From positions 1 to 56,047 of IMG/VR virus record IMGVR_UViG_3300042888_001378: a stretch of DNA of 56,047 bases; one strand, written 5' to 3'. Below, piece after piece: positions 5,262 through 45,963 of this stretch. The position numbers and the translations under genes are program-made. The notes under the pieces were generated by a model, which saw only the letters and a program-made list of their open reading frames with translations, had not been told where the DNA came from and did not search any database. The first letter of the stretch is position 1. Each line of letters begins with the position of its first letter. Source of the stretch: a virus.

Positions 5262-5292
5262 CAAATATAATATATTTTTTTTATTATTACAA
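5262..5292 (-). promoter_or_regulatory. Bacteroidetes-type promoter for the gp47/gp46 operon
   Basis: TTG (5292-5290), a 20-base spacer and TATATTTG (5269-5262) are present on the minus strand. Only TAAA separates the -7 box from the gp47 ATG, which leaves essentially no room for a 5' leader. Confidence 0.75.
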
Positions 5293-8669: not shown

Positions 8670-8699
8670 CAAATATAGTAATTTTTTTAACATAAACAA
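8670..8699 (-). promoter_or_regulatory. Bacteroidetes-type promoter for primase and cREC
   Basis: TTG (8699-8697), a 19-base spacer and TATATTTG (8677-8670) are present on the minus strand. The -7 box ends eight bases before the primase ATG, so the leader would be very short. The promoter starts 10 bases after the A-run of the upstream terminator, which gives a clean operon boundary. Confidence 0.78.
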
Positions 8700-10725: not shown

Positions 10726-12954
10726 TTAAAAGTCTATTGTTAATTCTATGGATGCAGTTGTAGAGTCAGAAATTTTTATAGGTCTCGACAATTTACCAAC
10801 TAAAACCAAATTCTGATTATTATCTAATATACCTATCTCACTAACATATCTATCATTACCGAATTCAAATGTTGAATTACTAGTTGATGCGATACTCGCA
10901 CCATCAATAGTAATATTAAATAATGATTTATATATTGTTGCCGATATGTGAGTTCTTAAGTTACCATAGAATAACCTTTCATCACCTAATGTCATTTTAC
11001 CATAATAACTAGCAGAAGACATATCTAATTCACTACCTAAATTGAAAATGGTTCCACCCGTATATAAATTACCTGTTAAAATAAATCCAGTAATATTTGG
11101 GTTTTGATTCTCAAATAGTGTCGGACTTATTGTTTCACCACTGTTAACCGTAATATTTGTGGACGTAAAATCAATTACTTTCCAATTAGATGGTAAAGGT
11201 CTAGATTGTGTTGTTTTATCAACCACCTGTGCCAATACTTTAAAAGTATCTGCAAAAAATCCATATCCATCATAATTAACGTCTTCCCTTTTTCTCATAT
11301 AAGGTAATTCATTAAGATTACCTATTCTAAACTGTACGTCTTTATCCGTATTAGTTTTATTATCGATTACTGTATATCTTTGACAAGGTAATATAGGTGT
11401 AGTGACTGTGGTAGTACCAGTTGATCCAGTACCTAAATTCTCTAACCAATATGTTAAATATAGGGATTCACCAGCCTTTAAAACACCAGTACAGTTACCA
11501 CTCAAAGGTGAAACTAACTCTGCCGCTAAATCAGGTAGTGTATAATTTCTATTAGATTTGTATGACATTCCAGCAATTAACTCTTCGTTATCAATAACTA
11601 CAATTTTTAATTGTGGGAAAACTTTACCTACTGCCAACGGTAATGTAGGACTAACTGACATACCACTATATTCAATTAAATCATAATATTCAATGTCATT
11701 ATTACTAGATAATGTTTTTCTAATTGTATCCGAAGTAAATCTCATACCTAATGTAGTTCCACTACCAGTACCTAAATCATTTCTTCTATGCCACATAACA
11801 GGTATATCTAAGTTAAGTAGTTTTCCTGTCTCCTCATCAATATAGAATTGTTCTCCGTAAAAATTAGAAATACAACTATTTGTGTAGTGAAGTATTGATA
11901 TGGATTTATTATATGTATCCATATAACTCTTACTATCCATCATAGAATTTGTGTTAGTAACAGTTAATTGTCTATTATAACCTAAGTATTGTTTCGTACC
12001 AACAAATTGTTCTGAACCAAATAAATTGTTTTCATGATAATTAACTGGCGAATCTTTATATAATCCCGCAGGATTTTCTGTCCAAACATTATTCATATTC
12101 CAAACAGGAATATTATCTACACATATATCACAACTGTTCTGAAATGACAATGTTCCTGAATTCCAATATGCCGAAAGACTACTTGCCCCATAATATGTGT
12201 CCATAGGATCATCACCTCCAGGTAATGTATAATAAGTTATGATAGTTCCTGAATATGCACTAAGTGTTGGTAATGCCCTATCCACTTTAATGGTTGACCC
12301 TGCAATGTTAGTTATGTTATAAACCGTATTTATTGTTGCAGAAGTCATTGTTGATCCCGTAACATTACCCAATGTGGGGTTACTAAATCTAAAAATAATA
12401 TAATCATTTACACTTGTTGCAGTTAAAGCGGTGTCTAATGTTAAAACACCTTGTGTAAATGTAGTATAATCAGTAGTACCACTAAATTTACTTAAATTAA
12501 TAGTACCTTGTTCTAAAATAAATGTAGAATTTGTTTGTGCCACTAATCCAGTATCTACAGTAGAACCTGAGAAAAATCCTCTATCATCCGCTTCATTTGT
12601 AATAATACCTTTTATTAATTGTATATTACTTTGTTGATTAAGTGGGAAAATAAATTGATTGGCTTGATCAAGTAAAAAAGAAGAAAAGAATGGGTTATCA
12701 TCTTTAGGTCGTAAAACTTTAGAATATATATTTTTTACAATATTACCATCTGCTTCAGGAAACCAAAATTCCCCAGTCGCTGCACCTATACTTGGTACGA
12801 ACTCACTCCAACCTTTTACATAGTTATAATCAACCTCAGAATCACCAATCATATAGTTGGCAAAAGTTAATTGTCCTTTCGCTAATTGTTCCCTACCTAT
12901 ATCAGTTAATTTTACTCTTACTAAGGTAGTACTCTGTTTATTTATGTAACTCAT
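10726..12954 (-). CDS. Tail fibre/baseplate structural protein (742 aa)
   Basis: This protein is beta-rich with abundant Thr, Ser, Asn and Gly. The N-terminus (LTDIGREQLA then MIGDSEVDYN) and C-terminus (VSEIGILDNNQNLVLVGKLS) match the 431-residue neighbour, and the centre is unique. A TCG-encoded Thr/Gly-rich stretch (GTGSTGTTTVTTP) near 510 looks like a linker. It is likely an adhesin or fibre-associated protein at the distal baseplate, but no receptor-binding domain is recognisable by eye. The ATG is preceded by AAAGGAAA, one of the few Shine-Dalgarno-like sequences here. Confidence 0.75.
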   Translation of the reverse strand: MSYINKQSTTLVRVKLTDIGREQLAKGQLTFANYMIGDSEVDYNYVKGWSEFVPSIGAATGEFWFPEADGNIVKNIYSKVLRPKDDNPFFSSFLLDQANQFIFPLNQQSNIQLIKGIITNEADDRGFFSGSTVDTGLVAQTNSTFILEQGTINLSKFSGTTDYTTFTQGVLTLDTALTATSVNDYIIFRFSNPTLGNVTGSTMTSATINTVYNITNIAGSTIKVDRALPTLSAYSGTIITYYTLPGGDDPMDTYYGASSLSAYWNSGTLSFQNSCDICVDNIPVWNMNNVWTENPAGLYKDSPVNYHENNLFGSEQFVGTKQYLGYNRQLTVTNTNSMMDSKSYMDTYNKSISILHYTNSCISNFYGEQFYIDEETGKLLNLDIPVMWHRRNDLGTGSGTTLGMRFTSDTIRKTLSSNNDIEYYDLIEYSGMSVSPTLPLAVGKVFPQLKIVVIDNEELIAGMSYKSNRNYTLPDLAAELVSPLSGNCTGVLKAGESLYLTYWLENLGTGSTGTTTVTTPILPCQRYTVIDNKTNTDKDVQFRIGNLNELPYMRKREDVNYDGYGFFADTFKVLAQVVDKTTQSRPLPSNWKVIDFTSTNITVNSGETISPTLFENQNPNITGFILTGNLYTGGTIFNLGSELDMSSASYYGKMTLGDERLFYGNLRTHISATIYKSLFNITIDGASIASTSNSTFEFGNDRYVSEIGILDNNQNLVLVGKLSRPIKISDSTTASIELTIDF

Positions 12955-12999: not shown

Positions 13000-15906
13000 T
13001 TAATATGCATCACCACTATTATATTGTATTACTATCTCACTAACATCACTATATGCATAACTATATATTACTTCACCCATAATAGGTGTGTAAAACTTTT
13101 CGTTTTTTATTCTATATATAAATTTATCACCAGCCAAAGCATTTGTCAATGTTACTAAAATTTTATATGTTTTTTCACCAATAACATAATCTGTTACTCC
13201 ACTATATAGTATGTTTTGGAAATAAATGTCTGATGGATCAGTAAACTCTAAAGTAAATTTACCATTTACACTTAAAGGTGCAGAATTTATTGACCAATTT
13301 ATATCTGGTGTATTTGTTGGCACTAATCCATTTATACCTGAATTCGGTACATAAAATCCCTCAATTATGTCACCAACATTTAATGTTTCTTCTAATATAA
13401 TTCTTCTATCGTTAGATGTTGATAAATAATATTCAATATCTTTAGATAGGATAGAACCATTTATTGATAATACAATATCACTTGCAGGTGATGAAAGTAA
13501 ATAAAATTCATATTTATTATGTGTTGTATTATAAAATACCCTATCATTTGTAGTTTCAGTACCAGTCGCACCACTAGTTATCGGTGTTGTAATATTATAT
13601 ACATCTCCATATAAATTATTTGATGTTCCGTTATCTACATACGCATATGTAAGAACTTGTCTATCCAATGGTGTAAATAATAATTGTATATATGGTGTAG
13701 ATGCAGTTGTATTTGCACTATACTCTATTCCCTTTGCCAAAACTGAACCATTATAACTAACTATTGGATCAGATAACCCATTAACTACATATTGCGTTGT
13801 CCCTGTGTTAGTAAATACCGTTTGTACTACTAAACTATCTATACTAGGAGGTGCGGGTGCAGTTGAGTTATTGAATAATGGTTTTTCTGCCTCAAACATA
13901 CTGATAAAATACCAATCAGTTTCTGGATAATATATACCATATAACGTACCCCTTTTGTAGGTATCTAAAGTATTTTTTCTAAGTTGTTGTTGTTTTGCTA
14001 AAAATGTATTAACGTCATAAGTCCAATATGATTTAATAAGAAACTCACCTTCACCTAAATTTACCGTTGGTAAATAAACAGTATTTCCAGTATTTCCTGT
14101 TAAATTTTCATAACCAATACTAAAATTATATAGTGCTGAATTACTAAATCCACTATTGATTTGATCATACTTATAAACCTCACCATAATATGATAGTTTT
14201 TTAGGTTCCACCACATTATTAACATTATTCACTAAGACATTAAATAGGTATCCTAATCTACCACTATTGATAAGATATACAAACCTATCTGGTGATAATG
14301 TTTTGTTTGTAATAACATTAGGTAATCCCCAATAAGAGGTAGTTCCCGTTACACCTGATGTGGTTAAATTAAACCCATTTTTTTCAAAATTACATAATAC
14401 ACCTAAACCATTAGGTCGGTGAATCATATGTAAGAATCCAACTCCGTAATCCGCAACATATATTTTTTCATCAGGACCCATCTGTAATGCACCTAAACTA
14501 CTACCACTTAATGAAGCAATTTCTATAACATTTTCAGTCATTTCAGTTGCTGAAGTATATGATAAATTAAACTGATAAATTTCTTCACCAGCACCTTCTG
14601 AAACATAGAATTTTGATGAATCTGAAGAAAACTCTATTCCGTAAGGTCCTACATTAAAAGTAAAACCTGTAATCGTAATAAGGTTACTTAAGGTACCTGC
14701 AGATGATTCAAAATCAAATATATCGATAATATCTTCATCGTATATTAAAGAAACTAATTTAGTACCATCAGGAGATGTTTTCATATAACCTCTTGCAGTA
14801 TTATGTGTACTACCAATACTTGTTATCACAGGACCACTTAAACCAGTCTGAGAAACTAAAAATGAATAATAATTAGTATCACCACTAGTATGTGCTAACA
14901 CCCAATAGTCTTCTCCATTACTATGTGAACAAGATGTAACTTTTTCTGTTATAGGGGTATTAATAATTTTATTATTTTTTACCTCTACTTCACCATTACC
15001 ATTTTGTAAATCCATATTAACTACTGAATACTCAAATCCATTTGGTGATCCATTGTAATCAGTTGTAAATACATAGTACTTATTTGAATTAGGTTTGGGT
15101 ACTATAATTGACGATTGTGTCGATGTACCAGAACTAGATAATCCTGTTCCGTTAACCATAATAGTATTACCACTAGTATAAATTGTTTCTCCATTAGTAT
15201 AGAACAATAGTTTACCCTCTACGTTTGATATAGATGAAACTCCCTCCTGTGAAATTACTGATCCAGTTATTGAAACTGGTGTTCCACCAGATTGTATTGG
15301 ATTAAATGAAATACCTGCGTTACTACCAAAGAACCAATTATAATTTAATCTATCATATGTATAACCAGTATATGTGACAGGACCACAAAGTGTGTCTGCA
15401 GTAGTTGTTGGTATTTTCCTAGTACCACTTATACTAACTTGTGGGAAATCAAAACTATCAAAATCAGTTCTCTCTATGTGTGAATACTGATACCTATTAC
15501 TAACTGGCTCCCACCCAAAATTTTTACTTTCATTTCTACTGGAAAGTAATTTATATTTTTTACCGCCATCAATATATAATAATTCATTATTAGGTTCTAC
15601 CTTAATAGACATATTACTATCACTACTATTACCCGATAAAGAAAATATAATAAATTTTTCTGTTAATAAATTAGAAAAAATTGTGTTACCGTAATTTTGT
15701 GGATTACTTAAAACATATAAATTTTTTGCATTAGATAAATCAGTTGGTAAAAATAATGCGGTTTCTGTTTCTATGAAAGTAGATAAAGATGAGGCATTAT
15801 AATGTACGTCAGTAGATATATTCACATTTACAGGTGATTCTATTTCACTTATCACATTTGCCGAAATAGACACTGGATTTTCTATTTTACCTCTTATACT
15901 AGCCAT
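13000..15906 (-). CDS. Tail protein carrying a Bacteroidetes surface-type beta-propeller
   Basis: This protein has 968 residues. About 1-185 is an N-terminal region of unknown type. About 190-535 closely follows the repeated beta-sheet module found at the start of many Bacteroidetes secreted, gliding- or T9SS-associated proteins. In order it shows NWFFGSNAGISF, EGKLLFYTNGETIY, NGTGL...STQSSIIVPKP, YYVFTTD, YSVVNMDLQNGNGEV, TEKVTSCSHSNGEDYWVLAH, GYMKTSPDGTKL and GALQMGPDEKIYVAD. About 560-968 is built from beta-sandwich-like repeats (VSYNGSVLAKGIEYS; VLSINGSILSKDIEYY). It sits between the giant tail protein and two fibre-like proteins, so it is probably surface exposed on the tail. A host-derived adhesion module is my inference; the similarity is recognised from memory and not searched. 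Confidence 0.8.
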   Translation of the reverse strand: MASIRGKIENPVSISANVISEIESPVNVNISTDVHYNASSLSTFIETETALFLPTDLSNAKNLYVLSNPQNYGNTIFSNLLTEKFIIFSLSGNSSDSNMSIKVEPNNELLYIDGGKKYKLLSSRNESKNFGWEPVSNRYQYSHIERTDFDSFDFPQVSISGTRKIPTTTADTLCGPVTYTGYTYDRLNYNWFFGSNAGISFNPIQSGGTPVSITGSVISQEGVSSISNVEGKLLFYTNGETIYTSGNTIMVNGTGLSSSGTSTQSSIIVPKPNSNKYYVFTTDYNGSPNGFEYSVVNMDLQNGNGEVEVKNNKIINTPITEKVTSCSHSNGEDYWVLAHTSGDTNYYSFLVSQTGLSGPVITSIGSTHNTARGYMKTSPDGTKLVSLIYDEDIIDIFDFESSAGTLSNLITITGFTFNVGPYGIEFSSDSSKFYVSEGAGEEIYQFNLSYTSATEMTENVIEIASLSGSSLGALQMGPDEKIYVADYGVGFLHMIHRPNGLGVLCNFEKNGFNLTTSGVTGTTSYWGLPNVITNKTLSPDRFVYLINSGRLGYLFNVLVNNVNNVVEPKKLSYYGEVYKYDQINSGFSNSALYNFSIGYENLTGNTGNTVYLPTVNLGEGEFLIKSYWTYDVNTFLAKQQQLRKNTLDTYKRGTLYGIYYPETDWYFISMFEAEKPLFNNSTAPAPPSIDSLVVQTVFTNTGTTQYVVNGLSDPIVSYNGSVLAKGIEYSANTTASTPYIQLLFTPLDRQVLTYAYVDNGTSNNLYGDVYNITTPITSGATGTETTNDRVFYNTTHNKYEFYLLSSPASDIVLSINGSILSKDIEYYLSTSNDRRIILEETLNVGDIIEGFYVPNSGINGLVPTNTPDINWSINSAPLSVNGKFTLEFTDPSDIYFQNILYSGVTDYVIGEKTYKILVTLTNALAGDKFIYRIKNEKFYTPIMGEVIYSYAYSDVSEIVIQYNSGDAY

Positions 15907-15929: not shown

Positions 15930-18900
15930 TTATTCTGTTGTACAATTATGTATTAATTCTTGATTATAAAAATACCCACCTTCTTCCCAGTCAGGATCAC
16001 CAAGTATTGTTACATTACCCTCATATTCATTTGTATCATAAATTTGAGTTATAAATACCTTATTATAATCACTAATTAAAGTGTTAGAAACTCTAACACA
16101 TTTATTAACTTTATCTCTTAAAATAGAAATATAATTTCTTTGTCTTTCGTACAGTGTAGTTCCTGGTATAAAATTAACCAAATTATTTTCTGCCTGTACT
16201 AAAGTTTCTGTAAGTCCACTACAACTCATAAAATTACTATAATAATTTTGTTGTTGTAATAAATATTGGGTTTCCTCATTACTTAAATTAGTAAGTAAAT
16301 TACTTAATTGTGTTTCTAAATTAGTAAGGTTACCAGTCAATAATTGTATTTGTGCCGTCACCACATCAATCTGAGATTGTAGGTTAGGTGTATCTAAATC
16401 TTGTAAGTTTAACGAACACAATATTTTATTTTGTGCAGCGATATTATCCTTAACTAATTCTATTTGAATGTTTTTTATTTTTATTTGATTTTTAATATTG
16501 TTTATCACATCATTAGTAGGGTAAATTGGTATTTGTTCTACTAATGAATAAACGTCTTCCGAACCAATACTAAAATCTGTATACGCACTTAACGTACAAC
16601 CTGTTGTCGTTTCAATAAAGTTTAAACTATATTTTTTATACTGAAATTTGTTTTGATCGAAAATCGTGTTTCTATATACTTTACCTGAATTATCACAACC
16701 TTCCCAAATCGTAGTTGCTGGGACAACTTGTTCTAATAAATTTAACCAATAGTCCCCAATTTTATCCATAAATTCAAACATAGTATTATATGTGAATTTA
16801 CCTGACAATTCTTTACCACAATTATTGGCGTTTAGATATAGTTCATAGAATAACCTTAGTAATGGATAATCACTAATAGTTTGTCTACTTTTTACATCAA
16901 TTAGATTTGATTGTACTAATTGGTCAAACATATCTTTTACATTGATTTCTGATGGTTGTACATCTAAATAATCTAATGGGTTAATACAGATATTATATGT
17001 ATTACCTGTGTAGTATCCGTTAGAACATTCATTTAAAGTTCCACAGTATTCACAATCACCTTCACATACACTACATCCATCAATTGGTTTCCATACACAA
17101 TATCCGTTGTTACTGTCCCACTGGTAGTTTTTACCCAATCCTAACCCATCTAAACCTTCACCGTTTAAAATACTGTTTAATGTTTTACAACAGTTTTCAT
17201 CCACAAAAGTGGTTTGATTAAATGTTTGTGCAGTTACACCACTTAAAACTTCAACTAAAGTACCACCAGTATAAGGTGTACTACCACTATAGATATATGT
17301 CTCATAAACAGATAAAGTACCATCATAATTTTCAGTTATTAAACCAAATAAATTATCTGTTTGTTGATTGTTATTAATAACCAACGTATCTGTACCACAA
17401 TTATTATTTTGTATTTCAAAACCTGAAAGACTTGATCCTAAATTTAATAAATCATAGTATGATGCATTTAAGGAATTTGTATAATCTGAGGTTAATGCAT
17501 AGTATTCATTTTTTAACTCAGTAACTTGATTTACCAAAGTATTTGTAAATGTCGAACAACTAAATGTTAATCCTGTTGTGGATGCGGACAAATCTAATGA
17601 ATAATCAAATAGTGTTGTAGAACTATATACCTGCCCACTATAAACTACAGTACTAGCAGATGTACAATTTGTAGGACAACTACCACTACAATCTATATTT
17701 TTCCAAAAATTAAATACGTCACATTCTATAGCCTTCGCAGGATCTATACTAAATGTGGTGTTTTTAACATTAATAATTAAATCTGAATGATTAACGTCAT
17801 AATTCGTATATCTATATTCTAAGTCAGTCCACAATCTTTCTTCAGGTGTACCTAATTTTACTACCTGATAATTACTTGTTGATGCCGTATTACAAGGTCC
17901 ATCAGGATATATAGTTTCTGTAATTATTCCCTGATCAGTGTAAACCCAAGATTTTTTATTGTCAATAACACAACTCAATTGTGGAATTAAACAATTATTC
18001 AATGAAACTAATCGTTCTGTTTTACAATCAGAAACATTAATTATAATGTTATCAATTAATAAACATACTGAACAGTTATAGTTTTCTATCTCAACTGAAA
18101 AGAAAAATTCTTTTTCGGGATATAATCTCCTTAAATCATCACACACACATTCTGGTATAGTGAAATTAAAGGTATTCCAATTAGGTTGGAATAAGTTTGA
18201 GTTATATGGTGTGTTTGAGTTAGATAATTCTGTGAAAACAGAATCCTCTATTAAGGCAATATCTTGTTCAGAACCTTCCAATATAATACCACTATATCCA
18301 ACTGAAGGGTTAAATACCCAAAATGGGTTAACTGACTGTGTATACGGTAAATAAGTTAAATTAGAGTCAACTTGACTAGTATAAACTAAATTATTATTAT
18401 CCACAAACAATTTAAAATTAAGTTTTAAATCATCAATTAATGTTAAATAACTTTCAGTACTATTAATATAGTCGTTATATTGTGTTAGTATTTCAGAATA
18501 CCATTCATCATAAACAGACTCTGTAATATTTTCTATCTCTATTAATTTTGTTTGTAGTGTTTCTAATGTATTATTTAGATAATTAAATAATTCTTGACTA
18601 CAACAAGGGTTAGGTAATGTTGGATCACATGGACTAGGTATTTCTGCCTGTGCTTCCGCTATAACATCTACAATTTCATCTATAGTAATTGTAGTTTTTA
18701 AGGTTGAATTATCGTTTTGTACGATATCATATGTTATATCTTCCTTTTGTTTTTCTAATGCACTAACCTGTGTTTTATTTTTTTGTAGTTCAATATTTAA
18801 CGTAACCTTTTGACTATCATTTAATACAATTTGACCTTCAGCATTAGTAATCGATTTAGGTGTAACACCTAATATTATTGCAGTTTTATTAATGGTATTA

Positions 18901-21900
18901 ATATAATCATTATTATCTAAAGTAGATTTTTGAGTTGTTTCATCACCAATTACTAAATAATTTTTAGATAATGTGTTGATGTTCTCTTTTACTACATTAA
19001 TATCTTTTACTAAAGTATTTTCTACTTCTTTTTGGTTTTCAAATTTTGCAACAACTAATTGTTCTTCTAAATAATTATTTTGTTGACAATTATATAATAA
19101 ATTTGAGTAGACTGTTTTTTCAGAACTTAATCTAGCATTTTCAGTTTTAACACAATTATTATATAATTCTCTATCTCTTGTATTAATTGTTTTAGTATTA
19201 CCATAAACTTGTGCTTTACAATAAGATTCAACGTCAAAGGTATTTATTTCATTAATCTTATCTTCATAAATTTTACAATCTAATGGTAATGTAGCATTAG
19301 ATAATGCCTTATTAATTACCTCAATTTGACTATTTTTTTCTGTAATCTGAGAATCAATTAATGTCTCAGTAATTTTTAACTTATTATTTTCAGTAGTTAA
19401 TATATCTACTTGAGTTTCTTTACTTGAGATTAATGTATTCTTTTGTTTTTCAGAATTTATAATTTCATTAGATAACACAGACTTAGTTGGTTGATTTTCG
19501 GGTACCTCCTCTAAATTACAGTTAAATTCGTATTGTGATATTACCCCAATAATTCCTTCTATAGTATTCTTATAATCCATATATAGATTAGTCCAAAGTC
19601 CATATTCTAATGGTATTTCTAACATACAAATATTTGTAGTAGTTATATATTCATTAAAGTCTATAAAACATCCTGGTTGAACTATGTTTAAAGTGAAACA
19701 ATCACCTATTGATATGTCTACCTCTTTTTTAATGTTATTTAAATCTGTACCATATGTAATCAATTCACTATAATCAAAATCAAATGAACCTAATAACTCA
19801 CTATTTGGTGTTGTAACTATTTCTTCATATGTATCAGAAATATTTTTAACCCAATTAGCATTAACTGAATACGAATCCTTCAATGATGCGATGTTTCCAC
19901 CTACCGCATTACAACATTCAACAATTGGTTCGTTTTGTTGTGTGTTTTGCCATATAACATATTCTTCAGTTACATCCTCACTATCATTAAAGTTATTTTC
20001 TAAAATAGAACTTTCTTCCGAACTGTTAGTAAAAGAAACAAAGTTCATACATAATAAACTATTTAATGAATTATCATGAATAATTGCTGGATAACAATCT
20101 ATTCTTGTTACACACTCTTTTAAATTTTCTGTCTGATATTTTACCATATAGTCAAAAGAAAAGTCTACTTTACAAGAACAATCTGTAACTTCAGGTAATT
20201 TAAATCCTGACCAAGCCTCACTCGCAAATACAATTGATACGTTATCTAAACTACCACACCCTATATGATTTGGATCAACAACCGCATTACTTATTGAGTT
20301 AGGGTTTTCTACATATAGATTACCATTATCAACATACGGTATTAAATTATTTGTTGTTGTATCAATATAAAAAGAACCATATGTATACTGAGTAAACAGT
20401 TCTCCAACTGACTGATACAATTCTGCCAATTGTCCTGTTGCGTTCCAATCTAAAATGAAATCATTATAATATTCGATAGGAGTAAAACTTACTCTACCAT
20501 ATTCGTCTATTACGTGAACAACCCAATTTGCTGGATTCATAAAATCAGGATCTTCAAACAAAGAATTTAAAATAACTTCAAAACAATCAATACAATCTTC
20601 ACCAACACCTTTAACTATTATAGCCTCTTCTAAACAATCATCATATATTGTTGTCGAATAATATTGTGGTACTTCACCGATTGGGTTTTGTAATTCTACA
20701 TAACCAATAGATGTATCAAATAACGATGGTGGTATAACATACGTTGTTCCACCAGTTACAGTTGATAATTGATTACTATATGTCTCAATTTGTGTCTGTA
20801 TTGTTGATTTTTCTATTTCAGTATTTAATGACTTATATGTTGTACCACCTATTGGTGTCTCTACAGTTTCTTTACCACTACCAGTCATACCTATAGGGTT
20901 TACATTAGGAACTGTAACACCACCTAAACCAATAACTGGTGAAGAAGGTAACGCAGGTACTGACGTGTTAGTAGTATTACCAACTGTCCCATTTGTTCCT
21001 GAAGTAGATGAGGTACCATTTAGTTCCCCCTCTAATCCCCCAATGTAATTTTGAATATCGTTTGTATTCGATGTTGGTGTAGTTAATGAACTACCTGAAA
21101 TACATACAATATAACTTATATCATCTTCTTCAATAATTTGAAAATTGTATCCGTACCACGCACAACATTCAGGACTACTAATTATTGTTGTTAATTCACA
21201 ATCAACTTCAACAAACCACTTAAAGAAATTAGACGGTAGACTGTTTGGGTTCAATCCGTTTAAATAAGTCTGTGGTGGAATTGTAGAGGTGTTTGATGAT
21301 GGGGATGTCGAAAACTGTGTTACACCATTAGGTGTTAACTGATAACATTTATTATTAAATGAATATATGTTATTTGGCATAGTATTATTAGTCAATTCAA
21401 ACACTATAATACCATTAGGTAAAGTATCAACTGGCTCACCAACACAAGGTGCAGTTTTAGAACAGTATTCAACTATTCTACATTCTTCATTAGTATATGT
21501 AACATATTGTCCACCTTCAGAAATACAACAACTAGCAAATTCATTAAATGAAACCTTAGTACCACCAGAATTAACAAAGTATATATAAGGGTCACAAGTC
21601 ACCGCACTTAAGGATGAACAATCTATTTGGAAATTATCCTGTGGTATCTCATCAACACATATTTGTAATGTTTGATTAATGTCACAATTTTCAGAAGAAA
21701 CTTCTAAAAGTGCATTGTTTTGTGCCACCATATAGTTATTTTGTATTACATACCATTCTGGTGAATACGCCAAATAACTATTTTGTTGTATTTGTTGTTG
21801 GAAATTTAAATATGCTTCTTCAGCCGCCTCAAATTGTTGTTGGAATGTTGTCTTACCATCATTCTGTAGTGGCGTTTCAATAATACTATAATTAACGTTT

Positions 21901-23948
21901 ACACAATCCTCTATGAATTGGTATGTATTAATTGCGGGATTAAATGTTAATTGTGTTGTAAAAAATTCACTCGTCCCTGAAGGTACGCTATTAAATAATC
22001 CATGATTATAATTTAAAAAGTAATTTTCACCTAAAGTTGTTGCCGTAACAGTAACTGTGGGTTCTGAATTAAAGTTAGGGATAAAACACCTACTAAAATA
22101 TTGTAGATATTCACTACCACCATCATATGCACCAACGTGTGGGTTGTTACCCTCTAAATTAGTTACTACATTAGAACCGTAAGTCTCCCTATACCAACCT
22201 CCCGCTTTTTGGAAATACATTTCGGTATAATCATTCTCCACTAACTCACCCGTATTAGGATCAATAAAATTTGTAATTACTATATCACCATTTATTGGTG
22301 GTAGTGGGTACCCATTTTCATCGTATGGGATATTTTGGAAGTTTACTTCTCCTGTATATATGTATAATAATCTTTTTATTTCCTCTACATCTAAAGGTTT
22401 GTCTAATATTACAATGTATTCATTGAAATTAACTAAGGATTCAGGTGCACCAATAAATCTGAATAAGAACTCAACTGCCTTCCTACTACCCTTACTTTTC
22501 CACAACCAAGCAATGTTCAATATTAATCTTCTGTAAAGTTCAATATCAATCTCACTTTGAGTCATATTAGTTGATGTACCGCTAAACTCTCCACCACCGT
22601 TACTAGGTAAAAATAATTTACTAAATGTATTATCCGTAACAAAAGTTATAGGGTCTAAACCTAACATATAAGCCAAATCTTTGACTAATACATCTGGTAC
22701 GTTGTTTTTCTTATCGTATGTAACAACGTGTGCGAATTTTATACCATTAATATATTTTTTAATGAAATCAAATTCTACTCCATATATTCTTAATAGTTTA
22801 GATGCTTTCTCACCATTTAATACATAATCATTACCATCCCCTCTAGGTATGGTATCAAAACTACTTATTGCTTCCGTAGTATATTTTCTTATAATGATAT
22901 CCGTTCTAGAATTATCTAAATCCTCACCCAATTGATTCATCTTATCTAAAAAGGCAATATAATAACTATCAAAAAAGTTTAGGTTATAACCGTCTTCTAA
23001 TAAAGGGAAATTAAATATCTTTTTAGATGTGAGTAATACACCATTATCTGTATATTTCGTACTATAGAATTGTGATGTATATTTTGGATAAATATTTCTA
23101 TCTAATAAGTTTAATTGTAAGTCATTTAATCCCGTAAAGAATTTCTCAATCTCCGATTCGTTTGGTTTTATGAAATACGGTATTGACGAATCTATTGGTG
23201 TCGTTAAGAATGATATTTGTGGTAAAATTAAACCAGTTAATTCTGGAAAAGGATTTCCCTCAACAACTAATTCTACCTCAGAGTTAGTTTTTTGTGTTGC
23301 AGGTGCGATACTTTTTATTTTTTTCGAAATACCGTTATGTTCAATTGTATATGAACCATATTTTAACGTAAAATTTCTTAAAGGATTTTCTGTTTGTTCT
23401 GTAGGTGTAAATTGTGCATCTACAGTATATTTTATATTGTATGGGTTAACAAAGAAATTACTATTTACCTTAAATGTTGATTCGTCCGCAGATAAATTAT
23501 ACACATAATTAGTAATATTATTACCTGTAACACTACCAACTTTATTATCCACATAAATTGCTGCAGGATAATTATTTTGTATGTCTATTAGGGAAGCCCT
23601 AATCAATTCTTTTGCAGAACCATACCAAACATAACTTAATGGATTTGTAATATCTAAATTAAGTTTTGTTTTTAAATTTTTTTGTATCTCTAATTGAGGT
23701 GTGTCCGCATCTACAATATCGTCTAAGGTAAAAAATTTAGATTTTGTACCCTGAGTAAATAAAACATTTGGTTTGGGATCTAAATTTACTGATATTGAAA
23801 AATTACCATTAGTAAATAACGTAGTCCCTCCCTCACTAGTAAGTTGGAACCCTACTAAGTCAGGACTAAAATTCCTATACTCAATGTTGTCATTGAAAAA
23901 TATTCTTTTAGCGTATCCCGCAATTTTTATTCTCTTATTGTTAGCCAT
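15930..23948 (-). CDS. Giant tail/baseplate protein with gpI/gp7-like segment (2672 aa)
   Basis: The N-terminal 500 residues end in LYRRLILNIAWLWKSKGSRK and AVEFLFRFIG (about 471-500). These resemble the KGT-containing helix of P2 tail protein I and related wedge proteins. The rest is a mosaic of beta-rich, cysteine-containing segments (about 750-950), a Gly/Thr/Ser linker (about 970-1035), long coiled coils (about 1490-1560, 1600-1750 and 2440-2560) and further beta-rich segments. A segment near 2320 (EQVVPATTIWEG) recurs in baseplate proteins of related phages as I remember them. It most likely forms a wedge arm or a tail-length extension beside gp6. No enzyme motif was seen. The role is inferred. 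Confidence 0.75.
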   Translation of the reverse strand: MANNKRIKIAGYAKRIFFNDNIEYRNFSPDLVGFQLTSEGGTTLFTNGNFSISVNLDPKPNVLFTQGTKSKFFTLDDIVDADTPQLEIQKNLKTKLNLDITNPLSYVWYGSAKELIRASLIDIQNNYPAAIYVDNKVGSVTGNNITNYVYNLSADESTFKVNSNFFVNPYNIKYTVDAQFTPTEQTENPLRNFTLKYGSYTIEHNGISKKIKSIAPATQKTNSEVELVVEGNPFPELTGLILPQISFLTTPIDSSIPYFIKPNESEIEKFFTGLNDLQLNLLDRNIYPKYTSQFYSTKYTDNGVLLTSKKIFNFPLLEDGYNLNFFDSYYIAFLDKMNQLGEDLDNSRTDIIIRKYTTEAISSFDTIPRGDGNDYVLNGEKASKLLRIYGVEFDFIKKYINGIKFAHVVTYDKKNNVPDVLVKDLAYMLGLDPITFVTDNTFSKLFLPSNGGGEFSGTSTNMTQSEIDIELYRRLILNIAWLWKSKGSRKAVEFLFRFIGAPESLVNFNEYIVILDKPLDVEEIKRLLYIYTGEVNFQNIPYDENGYPLPPINGDIVITNFIDPNTGELVENDYTEMYFQKAGGWYRETYGSNVVTNLEGNNPHVGAYDGGSEYLQYFSRCFIPNFNSEPTVTVTATTLGENYFLNYNHGLFNSVPSGTSEFFTTQLTFNPAINTYQFIEDCVNVNYSIIETPLQNDGKTTFQQQFEAAEEAYLNFQQQIQQNSYLAYSPEWYVIQNNYMVAQNNALLEVSSENCDINQTLQICVDEIPQDNFQIDCSSLSAVTCDPYIYFVNSGGTKVSFNEFASCCISEGGQYVTYTNEECRIVEYCSKTAPCVGEPVDTLPNGIIVFELTNNTMPNNIYSFNNKCYQLTPNGVTQFSTSPSSNTSTIPPQTYLNGLNPNSLPSNFFKWFVEVDCELTTIISSPECCAWYGYNFQIIEEDDISYIVCISGSSLTTPTSNTNDIQNYIGGLEGELNGTSSTSGTNGTVGNTTNTSVPALPSSPVIGLGGVTVPNVNPIGMTGSGKETVETPIGGTTYKSLNTEIEKSTIQTQIETYSNQLSTVTGGTTYVIPPSLFDTSIGYVELQNPIGEVPQYYSTTIYDDCLEEAIIVKGVGEDCIDCFEVILNSLFEDPDFMNPANWVVHVIDEYGRVSFTPIEYYNDFILDWNATGQLAELYQSVGELFTQYTYGSFYIDTTTNNLIPYVDNGNLYVENPNSISNAVVDPNHIGCGSLDNVSIVFASEAWSGFKLPEVTDCSCKVDFSFDYMVKYQTENLKECVTRIDCYPAIIHDNSLNSLLCMNFVSFTNSSEESSILENNFNDSEDVTEEYVIWQNTQQNEPIVECCNAVGGNIASLKDSYSVNANWVKNISDTYEEIVTTPNSELLGSFDFDYSELITYGTDLNNIKKEVDISIGDCFTLNIVQPGCFIDFNEYITTTNICMLEIPLEYGLWTNLYMDYKNTIEGIIGVISQYEFNCNLEEVPENQPTKSVLSNEIINSEKQKNTLISSKETQVDILTTENNKLKITETLIDSQITEKNSQIEVINKALSNATLPLDCKIYEDKINEINTFDVESYCKAQVYGNTKTINTRDRELYNNCVKTENARLSSEKTVYSNLLYNCQQNNYLEEQLVVAKFENQKEVENTLVKDINVVKENINTLSKNYLVIGDETTQKSTLDNNDYINTINKTAIILGVTPKSITNAEGQIVLNDSQKVTLNIELQKNKTQVSALEKQKEDITYDIVQNDNSTLKTTITIDEIVDVIAEAQAEIPSPCDPTLPNPCCSQELFNYLNNTLETLQTKLIEIENITESVYDEWYSEILTQYNDYINSTESYLTLIDDLKLNFKLFVDNNNLVYTSQVDSNLTYLPYTQSVNPFWVFNPSVGYSGIILEGSEQDIALIEDSVFTELSNSNTPYNSNLFQPNWNTFNFTIPECVCDDLRRLYPEKEFFFSVEIENYNCSVCLLIDNIIINVSDCKTERLVSLNNCLIPQLSCVIDNKKSWVYTDQGIITETIYPDGPCNTASTSNYQVVKLGTPEERLWTDLEYRYTNYDVNHSDLIINVKNTTFSIDPAKAIECDVFNFWKNIDCSGSCPTNCTSASTVVYSGQVYSSTTLFDYSLDLSASTTGLTFSCSTFTNTLVNQVTELKNEYYALTSDYTNSLNASYYDLLNLGSSLSGFEIQNNNCGTDTLVINNNQQTDNLFGLITENYDGTLSVYETYIYSGSTPYTGGTLVEVLSGVTAQTFNQTTFVDENCCKTLNSILNGEGLDGLGLGKNYQWDSNNGYCVWKPIDGCSVCEGDCEYCGTLNECSNGYYTGNTYNICINPLDYLDVQPSEINVKDMFDQLVQSNLIDVKSRQTISDYPLLRLFYELYLNANNCGKELSGKFTYNTMFEFMDKIGDYWLNLLEQVVPATTIWEGCDNSGKVYRNTIFDQNKFQYKKYSLNFIETTTGCTLSAYTDFSIGSEDVYSLVEQIPIYPTNDVINNIKNQIKIKNIQIELVKDNIAAQNKILCSLNLQDLDTPNLQSQIDVVTAQIQLLTGNLTNLETQLSNLLTNLSNEETQYLLQQQNYYSNFMSCSGLTETLVQAENNLVNFIPGTTLYERQRNYISILRDKVNKCVRVSNTLISDYNKVFITQIYDTNEYEGNVTILGDPDWEEGGYFYNQELIHNCTTE

Positions 23949-33826: not shown

Positions 33827-35656
33827 TTATGATGTAGAAATTGTCACTTTTATGTCTTTATTAGGGTATTTAATTTCAAACATACCATTAGGTTGTCCGA
33901 ATAAAGTATATTTACCTAATAAGTCTACCTGTCTAGTAGTCTCATCAATATAAGGTTGGGCAATTTCATTTAACGAATATTTACCGTTTTCATTAACTTT
34001 ATTAAATACTCTTAAATCTGTGACATTTAATACACCACCAACATTATTTATATTTTCAATAAGTTGTGAAACATATATATTGTCACCCATATCCCATTTA
34101 TTTATATCAAAATAATCTGTGATACTACTAATGACACCTGAAATGATATCACCTTTAGGTATTGATTTTTCTGCAAAAATATCTACCTCAAAACCTAAAT
34201 TAATGACTCTACCATTTTTAACTGTTACATAGTCATTAATCATTCTATAATCCGCCAAATACTCTGCGATATTCTGTTTTAATGTGGACGTAGCCTCAGT
34301 AGTTAATTTAGAGTTTGAGTCTAATGCCAAAATTGATACGTTAATTTTATTTCTCTCCTCCCATACACCAGTTCTAAATGGTACACCAAATTTACCTGGC
34401 ATTAATGGTATTCTCGATTGATAATCTTTGATAGTGACACATCTGTCTTGTGCGGAAAAATTATATCTAACTAAGTTTCTTACTTCATCAATAGATGGTT
34501 CTTCTTTCCCACCCAATGCAGGTATCGGATTGTTAACCGATATACTATTTCTTATAATTCTATTTATATCTGATGAGTCACCATTAATTACTACATTTAT
34601 GGTACCCAAAGTATTAATGATATTTACACCAATGTTACTATCTTCTCCACCACCTATTCTATATCTAACATAGATAGTGTTATCCGTAGGTGGTATTTGA
34701 CCCAAAGATAAGTTATTAACTGTTTTACCAATTCTTTCTATTTGTCCTCTACATCCAACGAAATCGTTTAATTCTGACACATCGGCATCACCTGCACCAA
34801 ATATAATTTTACAGAAACCATTATCTGTATATTCTTTAATAAATCTACGAGGTGCGTTTAACCATTTACCTACTGCGATACCCTCTCTATCTGATATCGT
34901 ATTGTCATCAACAACATAAACTTCCGCCTGTGCCAATGCAGGTACCTCATACCAACTTATATCGAAATCGCTGAACTCTTCCTCTGTTGGTTGGTTAACT
35001 AAATTGGTACCTTCTTTTGTTATAATATTTTCTATTGATAGTACGTTGTCTTCAGGTAAAATAATTTCAAAAAATGGTCGGTAATCACTTCTACTTAATG
35101 TTCTTTTATAAGTTTTTGTGATACCGTTTAACATTATTTCTCTTTTAGTAAGAGTGTAATTTTGAATTATCCCACTTCCATCTATGTTTGGCACTACTAA
35201 TCTATTTGGTATTCCTCCAGTTGTAAAAGGGGATGAAAAATCACAATCTTCCATCATTTCGAATACTTTACCCGCACCTGTGGCTTGTGAACCTTTTAAA
35301 ATTTTAGGTGCATAACTAATATCAAATGTATCACCTTTAACTGGAATGTTAGTTACTGTCCAGTCAACTATTGTTATACTCGGTCTTTTTCCTGGTATAT
35401 TTAATCCAAAAGTTCTAGCCAACTCTAAAAGTGATGATCTTTCCTGTGCGTAACTGATTTGTGTCTCATTAAACATTCTATCAGTATGGAATGATAACAT
35501 ATCACCAACCGCAGCGTTTAATTCCAATAACATCATACCTACAGATGCATCATTAAAATCTGAGAATATTTCTGGATAATATTTTTGTATGAACTCTATT
35601 AACTGTTGTCTAACATCTGAGAAGTTCCTAGCATTGTAATCTATTTTTTTAGCCAT
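33827..35656 (-). CDS. 6: gp6-like baseplate wedge protein (baseplate J family)
   Basis: This 609-residue protein is close in length to T4 gp6 (660). The N-terminus (FSDVRQQLIEFIQKYYPEIF, then ASVGMMLLELNAAVGDMLSF) is typical of gp6/gpJ proteins that form the wedge dimer ring. A central Baseplate_J-like region follows at about 290-400, with the RCVTIKDYQSRIPLMPGKFG segment near 405-425. It lies two bases downstream of the gp25 homologue, the usual T4-like pairing. Assignment is firm. Confidence 0.92.
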   Translation of the reverse strand: MAKKIDYNARNFSDVRQQLIEFIQKYYPEIFSDFNDASVGMMLLELNAAVGDMLSFHTDRMFNETQISYAQERSSLLELARTFGLNIPGKRPSITIVDWTVTNIPVKGDTFDISYAPKILKGSQATGAGKVFEMMEDCDFSSPFTTGGIPNRLVVPNIDGSGIIQNYTLTKREIMLNGITKTYKRTLSRSDYRPFFEIILPEDNVLSIENIITKEGTNLVNQPTEEEFSDFDISWYEVPALAQAEVYVVDDNTISDREGIAVGKWLNAPRRFIKEYTDNGFCKIIFGAGDADVSELNDFVGCRGQIERIGKTVNNLSLGQIPPTDNTIYVRYRIGGGEDSNIGVNIINTLGTINVVINGDSSDINRIIRNSISVNNPIPALGGKEEPSIDEVRNLVRYNFSAQDRCVTIKDYQSRIPLMPGKFGVPFRTGVWEERNKINVSILALDSNSKLTTEATSTLKQNIAEYLADYRMINDYVTVKNGRVINLGFEVDIFAEKSIPKGDIISGVISSITDYFDINKWDMGDNIYVSQLIENINNVGGVLNVTDLRVFNKVNENGKYSLNEIAQPYIDETTRQVDLLGKYTLFGQPNGMFEIKYPNKDIKVTISTS

Positions 35657-39052: not shown

Positions 39053-40912
39053 TTACACTATTTCACATGCTCCCCCAGCACAAGCAACTTCGCCAGAAAG
39101 GTTAGTATTATCCTGTAGTTCAATAACTTTAGTTAAATCTAAGTTACTTAAAGACTTCATCATTTTTTCATAAGTTTGTTCATCACAATCCTCAAAAGGT
39201 GCTTGTTGGTACGTCCCCCCATTATATGGTAATACTGATAATCCATTATAGAATTTTCTGTTTTCCCACATCCATTCACCAGCGTATTCCCACTCATCTT
39301 CTTTCAAAGAAATTGTTGCGGATACATTATGACTATTTTGTCCACTTCTATGTCCTGGTTTAATCCACTCTTGAGATACTTTTTTTACTCTTTCTAATAA
39401 ATCAAAAGAGGATTCGTATCTTAAAATAGATCCTTCAGGTGATTTTTGTGGTATAGAAATAACTGCAGTATCGTGAGGTCTGAATATTTCATCCTCTATT
39501 AATTCAGGATGATTAACAGACAAATAAGTATAAATAGCCTCATTTTTTCCAACTCTAATTCTTCTAACATAATAGTCATTATGCCAAGCGTGAATGCCTG
39601 ATGAAGTACCTAAAACTAAAGATGATGTACCTGAAGGTTTTACTGTTGTAGTTCTAGCCGCATTATTAATACCAATTAATTTTGCAACTCTTTCGTTTTC
39701 TTCTTTTACTGCCTTTGCCGCTAATTTCATATCATAGCCTAAAACTACTCCAGAACCAATACCTGTCATACCGACACCAATCAATGCGTCTTTCTCTGTA
39801 GTTCTTTTCCAAACATCTCTTAGGTAATGGAAGTCAGTATAACCAGCCTGTAGTGTACCAATAAATGCGGCACCCTTAACTCTGATTTCAAAATCTTCTT
39901 GAGATTCAATATCTGAAGCATTTACCTCACATAAATTACAGAATTGGTATGGTCTCAAACCAATCTCACAACAAGGGTTAGTACCCCAATCTTTATCGTT
40001 AGATAAGTAAATTCCTGGTTCACCTGCTCCTGATAATTCAATTCTCTTCCACAAGTCTAAGAAAAATTCTTTTGTAATTTTGTGTCTAAGTAATACTGCT
40101 GAGTTATTCGCCCTTCCTCTTTGTGGATTCAATTCCCACCAGTTACCTGATTTACACGAAATCATCTCATTATCATCCGCACTAAATAAACTAATTAATG
40201 CTGCTCTTCTAATACCACCAGCCAATACCGCATCTGCAATATGACAAACTATATCGTGAACCTCAATAGATGATAATTTTTCACCATCAGATTTAGCATC
40301 TAATACTTTTTTAATATTGTGAATACAATCTTTTAACGGTTGTGGTCCAGGTGCCTTTCCACCTGATGTTACTAATAATGCCCCTTTTTGTCTAATATCT
40401 GAAAAATCAAATACTGGCGTCGATGACTTTATACCAAAATAAGATTCCACTAACATCTTAATTGCATCTGCCCATCCTTCAATAGAGTCACTAATTAAGT
40501 ATCTTCTATTTCTATTAGGGTTTGGTTTTTTAATGTCAGGTAATGCCTCAACATGATGTTTTTGTACTGAGAACCCTACACCTGTACCACCTAAAAGTAA
40601 AAACATAGTTTCTGAAAATGCGTCCACATGATCAATAGGTAAATATGCGCAATTATATACTCTGTTAGGTGATATTTCTATAGGTTTACCACCGAACTGT
40701 AAACTTCTCATTGATGGTAATATTTTTTTGTCATACACCAATTGATAAACCCCTTCAATTTCATCTTTAATATGAGGGTATTTTTTTTGATGCATTTCTT
40801 TATTTCTTGTAACTAACTCTTCCCAAGTCTCTCTTCTATTTTCAGTAGGTAGATATTTTGCATATTTCATATATACCGTAATGTCTGATAGAATTTTGTT
40901 TGATAACTCCAT
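39053..40912 (-). CDS. Adenosylcobalamin-dependent (class II) ribonucleotide reductase
   Basis: This 619-residue protein is of the monomeric class II type (Lactobacillus RTPR-like, usually about 740). It reduces ribonucleotides to deoxyribonucleotides for phage DNA synthesis with a coenzyme B12 radical. Visible catalytic residues are Cys88 in YNCAYLP, the NPCCEIG loop with Cys314 and Glu316, Cys325 in FCNLC, and the C-terminal redox pair Cys611/Cys616 (ACAGGACEIV). The segment AARTTTVKPSGTSSLVLG is the phosphate-binding loop. No separate small subunit gene is present, consistent with class II. It follows the helicase gene in the replication operon. I see no cobalamin riboswitch upstream. Assignment is firm. 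Confidence 0.93.
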   Translation of the reverse strand: MELSNKILSDITVYMKYAKYLPTENRRETWEELVTRNKEMHQKKYPHIKDEIEGVYQLVYDKKILPSMRSLQFGGKPIEISPNRVYNCAYLPIDHVDAFSETMFLLLGGTGVGFSVQKHHVEALPDIKKPNPNRNRRYLISDSIEGWADAIKMLVESYFGIKSSTPVFDFSDIRQKGALLVTSGGKAPGPQPLKDCIHNIKKVLDAKSDGEKLSSIEVHDIVCHIADAVLAGGIRRAALISLFSADDNEMISCKSGNWWELNPQRGRANNSAVLLRHKITKEFFLDLWKRIELSGAGEPGIYLSNDKDWGTNPCCEIGLRPYQFCNLCEVNASDIESQEDFEIRVKGAAFIGTLQAGYTDFHYLRDVWKRTTEKDALIGVGMTGIGSGVVLGYDMKLAAKAVKEENERVAKLIGINNAARTTTVKPSGTSSLVLGTSSGIHAWHNDYYVRRIRVGKNEAIYTYLSVNHPELIEDEIFRPHDTAVISIPQKSPEGSILRYESSFDLLERVKKVSQEWIKPGHRSGQNSHNVSATISLKEDEWEYAGEWMWENRKFYNGLSVLPYNGGTYQQAPFEDCDEQTYEKMMKSLSNLDLTKVIELQDNTNLSGEVACAGGACEIV

Positions 40913-45932: not shown

Positions 45933-45963
45933 CAAATATACTAAAGATATTCCTAAAAGTCAA
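45933..45963 (-). promoter_or_regulatory. Bacteroidetes-type promoter for the replication operon
   Basis: TTG (45963-45961), a 20-base spacer and TATATTTG (45940-45933) lie 24 bases before the gp32-like ATG on the minus strand. Just upstream, AAAAACCCCGATTTTT (45965-45980 region) could be a weak terminator for the preceding acidic-protein gene. Confidence 0.78.

Follow-up and report, generated by a model that had tools for sequence, protein, structure and literature searches.

A predicted tail protein shared by a group of uncultured phages contains a domain that is homologous along its whole length to a domain of secreted Bacteroidota proteins, and this domain is predicted with high confidence to be a beta-propeller. 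The phage copies form a single clade, relatives of the same phages keep the flanking parts of the protein with other modules or nothing between them, and the capture of a host gene segment, which the original prediction had put forward, is well supported by these comparisons and looks like a single event in an ancestor of these phages. We think it probable, though well short of certain, that the host-derived propeller occupies a slot in the tail protein as a surface-binding module that would aid adsorption to a Bacteroidota host. Propellers in receptor-binding proteins, the capture of host domains and modular slots in tail proteins are all known kinds of phenomena. What appears to be new is a T9SS-cargo propeller fixed in the tail protein of a phage group, since no T9SS-cargo propeller in a phage tail or receptor-binding protein was found in the open-licence literature that we searched.

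The predicted tail protein and its propeller

The window analysed here is the whole of a virus record of 56,047 bases. The protein of interest, P0001, is a 968-residue ORF at positions 13000-15906 on the minus strand, with propeller-bearing orthologues in 29 other IMG/VR contigs. The motifs quoted in the original prediction are found in this ORF, and the segment that it singled out, residues 190-535, corresponds exactly to positions 14302-15339. This segment, the propeller module P0002, stands between an N-terminal part (residues 1-189, positions 15340-15906) and a conserved C-terminal part (residues 536-968, positions 13003-14301), all on the minus strand. On the same strand, the next gene upstream (15930-23948) encodes P0004, a giant tail-cluster protein of 2672 residues, and the next tail-cluster gene (10726-12954) encodes P0003, a protein of 742 residues that served as our synteny marker. 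The propeller of P0001 sits, in other words, within a protein of the tail/baseplate gene cluster, and it is from this gene neighbourhood, rather than from virion data, that we take P0001 to be a tail protein; the earlier description of it as one stands on that footing.

In the curated Pfam, PHROGs and NCBIfam libraries no family reached its cut-off for P0001, and PHROGs gave no match for P0001 or P0002. When the segment was searched alone, the matches, all far short of the cut-offs, were Pfam Lactonase (E 0.012), Pfam SGL (E 0.016) and an NCBIfam model (E 0.022). P0001, P0003 and P0004 were without a match in INPHARED at E 1e-3. Five Rhizobium phage matches to P0002 in the same database (E 0.2-3, covering 17-18% of the query) were discarded as noise, as was the single match from a PDB sequence search (E 0.45).

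An AlphaFold2 model of the domain, built from 51 phage and bacterial sequences, reached a pLDDT of 95.4 and a pTM of 0.93, and structure searches with Foldseek and VIA-align returned propellers as the top matches (Z 20-24), in agreement with the fold that had been proposed from the sequence. The best VIA-align match was the YVTN propeller of an archaeal surface-layer protein (Z 24.2), and further matches included 6-phosphogluconolactonase-like proteins (about 22-23) and a designed seven-bladed propeller (22.2). The number of blades is probably seven, as judged from the fold matches and the order of strands rather than from inspection of coordinates; the strand order fits six four-stranded groups and one group closed by both termini. 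Among viral proteins the best fold match was A0A516LFR9, an entry left unnamed in the tables, with a TM of 0.73 (by query length) at 12% identity. The model of full-length P0001 (pLDDT 62, pTM 0.40) is of too low quality to show where on the protein the propeller lies.

Bacterial relatives and probable capture of the domain

Residues 190-535 are homologous to the bacterial domain at 34-44% identity, with E down to 4e-75. The homology spans the whole propeller, taking in most of P0002 residues 1-346, and the conserved blocks match; we found no Pfam family for this domain. A tblastn search of the PLSDB plasmids gave five records, all from Hymenobacteraceae (best E 2e-28), and in four of the five the match overlies a gene named 'gliding motility-associated C-terminal domain-containing protein'. 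A genome scan with one genome per species confirmed 216 relatives, from which 79 loci were kept: two phage pieces and 77 cellular loci, which by NCBI phylum comprise 76 from Bacteroidota and one from Ignavibacteriota. The best ORF of each cellular locus matched at E 4e-75 to 4e-55 with 34-41% identity, and 57 of the 395 genomes sampled from one phylum had a match at E 1e-20 or better, with a top identity of 44%. Homology of this kind, on plasmids and in the genome scan, lies far beyond chance and bears out the proposal that the segment is a module of secreted Bacteroidota proteins.

The accompanying label 'gliding-associated' fits one of the contexts in which the domain occurs and fails to cover the others. 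In 33 of the 77 cellular ORFs, all from Hymenobacter, the propeller is standalone (364-503 aa, with the domain at the end), and longer C-terminal parts extend beyond it in the other 44. A sorting-domain scan covered 44 ORFs, made up of 42 of the 44 long ones and two of the 33 standalone ones, and found T9SS sorting domains of type B in 23 and of type A in 19, two sets that may overlap. CHU_C was found in 23 of these ORFs, two PKD models in 17 each, SprB repeats in two and OmpA in one. Since the propeller is joined to such different C-termini, it is not a gliding-specific part. One Cytophagales ORF (locus L042, 5905-7434) combines the propeller with an OmpA-type C-terminus and has no T9SS sorting domain. 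In one Bacteroidota MAG (G002, locus L036) there are 14 propeller matches, four of them on one contig, which indicates that the propeller family has expanded there.

P0001 differs from these bacterial proteins, many of which carry type A or type B sorting domains: the curated domain libraries place no T9SS sorting domain at its C-terminus, and its flanks are those of a tail protein. A Pfam scan likewise found no SprB repeats in it, and no hydrophobic stretch is visible by eye at its N-terminus. We do not class P0001 as a T9SS substrate, and the domain alone appears to be what it has in common with such proteins.

On the phage side, IMG/VR scans turned up 29 contigs with the domain in addition to the window (26 plus 3 loci), always in the same tail protein, and the propeller-bearing ORFs range from 954 to 1218 aa. 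One of the two phage pieces from the genome scan lies inside a Flavobacteriales MAG (L034). The other (L033, also L026) is an 83.8 kb contig of the propeller phage group within the Prochlorococcus single-cell assembly AG-409-L21, where it is either a co-sorted phage or contamination.

In a tree of 82 rows, the 20 distinct phage copies form one clade with support of 100/100, present in 100% of 200 bootstrap trees, a number at which the bootstrap had not fully settled. Hymenobacter genome rows were thinned to one in five for this tree, and L009, L033, L034, L024, L025, L103_3, L038_4, matches covering fewer than 250 query residues, identical rows and the phage copies fetched later were left out. 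The stem of the phage clade is long, at 0.95 changes per column. The cellular copies form a polytomy, within which a midpoint-rooted drawing places the phage clade; the tree has no outgroup and assigns the phages to no single host group. Median identity is 38.3% between phage and cellular copies against 39.6% among cellular copies, phage copies are at least 52% identical to one another, and no more than 10 of the 64 cellular copies lie closer, on average, to the phages than to other cells, so the phage clade stands somewhat apart. The nearest cellular rows suggested by a quick tree were not supported by the careful one, and we therefore name no donor.

The case for a single capture by a phage ancestor combines this one clade with 51 propeller-free loci, described below, that have matching flanks and gene order. 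A recent event was considered and rejected. The GC/GC3 values of the segment (0.318/0.145) are close to those of its flanks (0.286/0.143 and 0.287/0.131), which makes the capture probably not recent, and the genome scans, those 395 genomes included, contained no cellular copy above 44% identity, so that the event is old or else its donor has yet to be sampled.

The module slot

Relatives of P0003 number 489 in IMG/VR. The best 79 loci were fetched, and every ORF of at least 60 residues in them was scanned with profiles of P0003 and of the N-terminal part, propeller and C-terminal part of P0001. Among these best 79 of the 489, 27 loci carry the propeller, 51 lack it and one (L193) is too short to tell. 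A P0003 homologue lies directly downstream of the propeller-bearing ORF in 27 of 27 such loci; each of the 51 propeller-free loci keeps the C-terminal part in the gene directly upstream of P0003 and is free of the propeller throughout. The profile of the C-terminal part (A4) matches 78 of the 79, namely the 27 with the propeller and the 51 without. The profile of the N-terminal part (A5), counted at a domain E < 1e-3, matches 27 of 27 propeller loci and none of the 51, so the gain or replacement in this clade went beyond the propeller. By P0003 identity to the window, the propeller-free loci are more distant (39-42%, against 59-100% for the propeller loci), and the simplest reading is thus that the common ancestor of the propeller-bearing clade gained it. 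A more distant relative on a 197 kb contig (L141) keeps the gene order with the propeller missing, and the window protein minus its propeller can be aligned with it through the junction at 28% identity (E 1e-49).

What lies between the flanks varies. In the 51 propeller-free loci, which represent 39 distinct N-termini, the flanks meet directly or enclose other modules, which marks this place as a module slot or exchange site. The N-terminus ahead of the C-terminal part is short (about 53-76 residues) in 34 of the 51 and longer in 17, and the long ones are mutually homologous in 16 of 17 cases, that of L208 being different. Each of these 16 has a PA14-like domain, a small domain or the two together, in most cases preceded by a conserved 'SGASKI'-like segment, and a PA14-like module occupies the slot of nine propeller-free loci. 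The name 'PA14-like' derives from one sub-cut-off Pfam match, that of L030 (19.5 bits, cut-off 24). Pfam gave no match for the modules of L219, L199 and L215, and a search for the PA14-like module in 296 genomes of the phylum, which also found no match, was run without a positive control and carries no weight.

The right flank of the slot is the conserved C-terminal part itself. The left anchor, residues 147-172 of P0001 (15391-15468, minus strand), resembles a conserved N-terminal segment of the propeller-free relatives: a profile-profile comparison with their N-termini gave E 2.8e-5 and a probability of 74% over residues 132-166, and an HMM of those N-termini placed its best domain within residues 133-176 in all 11 propeller proteins. 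This homology is short, and weak in single sequences, with the anchor HMM reaching a sequence E < 0.01 in only seven of the 11.

One propeller is itself interrupted. In L030 (7470-11123, on a contig that is also L185), a PA14-like module of about 240 aa lies inside the propeller, near window-domain residue 297, and relatives of this module are found at the slot in propeller-free loci as well as in long (giant) ORFs upstream of the tail protein.

Likely role and host of the phage

In the reading that we prefer, an ancestor of the phage group would have taken the propeller, which probably has seven blades, from a secreted Bacteroidota surface protein, and it would have been inserted at the module slot of the conserved tail protein, with the sorting domain that is frequent in the bacterial proteins lost and the propeller alone kept. 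Displayed on the baseplate or tail-fibre apparatus of the virion, it would most likely act as a surface-binding module. Its target would be a conserved component on the outside of a Bacteroidota host, whether a glycan or a protein with which the bacterial propeller proteins interact, and such binding would help adsorption.

Propellers of this general kind are described for the phage receptor-binding proteins phi11 Gp45, PRD1 P2 and PhiKZ gp131C in passages of PMC4901313. According to the same passages, PhiKZ gp131C (PDB 4GBF) is a seven-bladed propeller at the baseplate periphery whose receptor role is suspected and unconfirmed, and like the propeller of P0001 it belongs to a baseplate-associated phage protein; sequence searches against PHROGs, and against INPHARED at E 1e-3, found no relation between it and P0001 or P0002. 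Gp45 of Staphylococcus phage phi11 also places a propeller within a multidomain tail protein, in its case a receptor-binding one, but that propeller has five blades and a cell-wall teichoic acid receptor (passages of PMC4901313), and we found no sequence relation here either. Within the T9SS, the PorE protein contains a propeller that passages of PMC9143113 describe as thought to mediate protein contacts, with the difference that PorE is a periplasmic lipoprotein of the machinery.

The pattern of conservation bears on whether the propeller touches the host at all. It is the best-conserved part of P0001, which hints at a conserved partner or at a constraint of the fold. Among 301 phage pairs, which are not independent because they come from 26 related loci (of the 27 with the propeller, after exclusion of pairs with P0003 identity >= 90%), the C-terminal part is less conserved than the propeller in every one of the 301, and the N-terminal part in 275; P0003 slightly exceeds the propeller in conservation (medians of 69.1 vs 64.8%). 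Receptor-binding tips are usually fast-changing, and conservation this strong argues against such a tip and makes a structural role possible. The captured propeller could now be a platform that carries other binders rather than a part that contacts the host, a role for which the PA14-like module nested in the L030/L185 propeller offers some resemblance. However, the propeller is missing from the slot in 51 of 51 relatives, 34 of which carry no large module there of any kind (among the best 79 of 489 loci), so tails of this sort work without the scaffold, and we consider a purely structural role possible but unlikely.

A different specialisation would be mimicry, as the original prediction proposed, with the phage propeller occupying the partner, at the surface or in the secretion machinery, of the host's own secreted propeller proteins. 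The phage copies keep 80-93% of 76 cell-conserved residues, about the rate of the cells themselves (91% at the median, leave-one-out), which counts in favour of mimicry, but glycines and aromatics are frequent among the retained residues and may be kept for the fold alone. Passages of PMC9233685 report that Flavobacterium columnare mutants in gliding and T9SS genes are phage-resistant, and SprB and RemA are mentioned as possible phage receptors in passages of PMC13288928; those of PMC11205867 concern phage transport, not receptors. Against mimicry, the bacterial propeller comes with a type A, a type B or an OmpA anchor, or with none, and is thus not tied to one machinery. We also know of no ligand or partner of this widespread T9SS-cargo propeller, and on balance we regard mimicry as quite unlikely. 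That bacteria instead acquired the propeller from phages is hardly credible: the tree is not rootable with present data and, having no outgroup, leaves parsimony alone to exclude this direction, but the bacterial copies extend across Bacteroidota and Ignavibacteriota with deep divergence and paralogues, the phage copies are one shallow clade (at least 52% identity) in one gene context, and the propeller-free phages fall outside that clade by P0003 identity (39-42% vs 59-100%).

A broader and decidedly doubtful proposition is that a T4-like phage group has a host-type secreted propeller as its adsorption module, which docks on the conserved surface partner of the bacterium's own secreted proteins, and that the slot is a general exchange site. 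If this were true, the bacterium could not easily alter the receptor without harming its own secreted proteins, and the slot would let such phages swap host-derived and other binding modules. Quite apart from this proposition, a phage group in which the domain has stayed the best-conserved part of a tail protein offers a way to approach the bacterial propeller: the cell target of the phage propeller would be a candidate partner for the bacterial propeller proteins as well. The slot, now located in a sizeable family of uncultured phages (the 489 IMG/VR relatives by P0003), might help host prediction.

Genes for a baseplate wedge protein, a UvsX-like recombinase, a DnaB-like helicase and a RuvC-like resolvase, together with primase-like and sigma-factor genes, suggest that the phage of the window is T4-like and contractile. 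The wedge protein (33827-35656, minus strand; PHROGs 219, 10646 and 6, E 2e-19 to 9e-15) shares about 27% identity with its counterparts in Flavobacterium phage immuto, Microcystis phage Mel-JY01 and an uncultured phage. The host of the phage is likely a member of the Bacteroidota. Four intergenic matches to the Bacteroidota-type promoter consensus lie at 8670-8699 (minus strand), 5262-5292, 1491-1520 and 45933-45963, where 0.19 are expected and none of 500 shuffles reaches four, with gene ends taken by hand from the ORF list; the enrichment is found only in this intergenic subset, the 12 matches in the whole window against about 9.7 expected being at chance level. Large phages of predicted Bacteroidota hosts are the subject of passages in PMC12619734. 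The window also encodes a ribonucleotide reductase at 39053-40912 that matches the insertion domain of B12-dependent enzymes.
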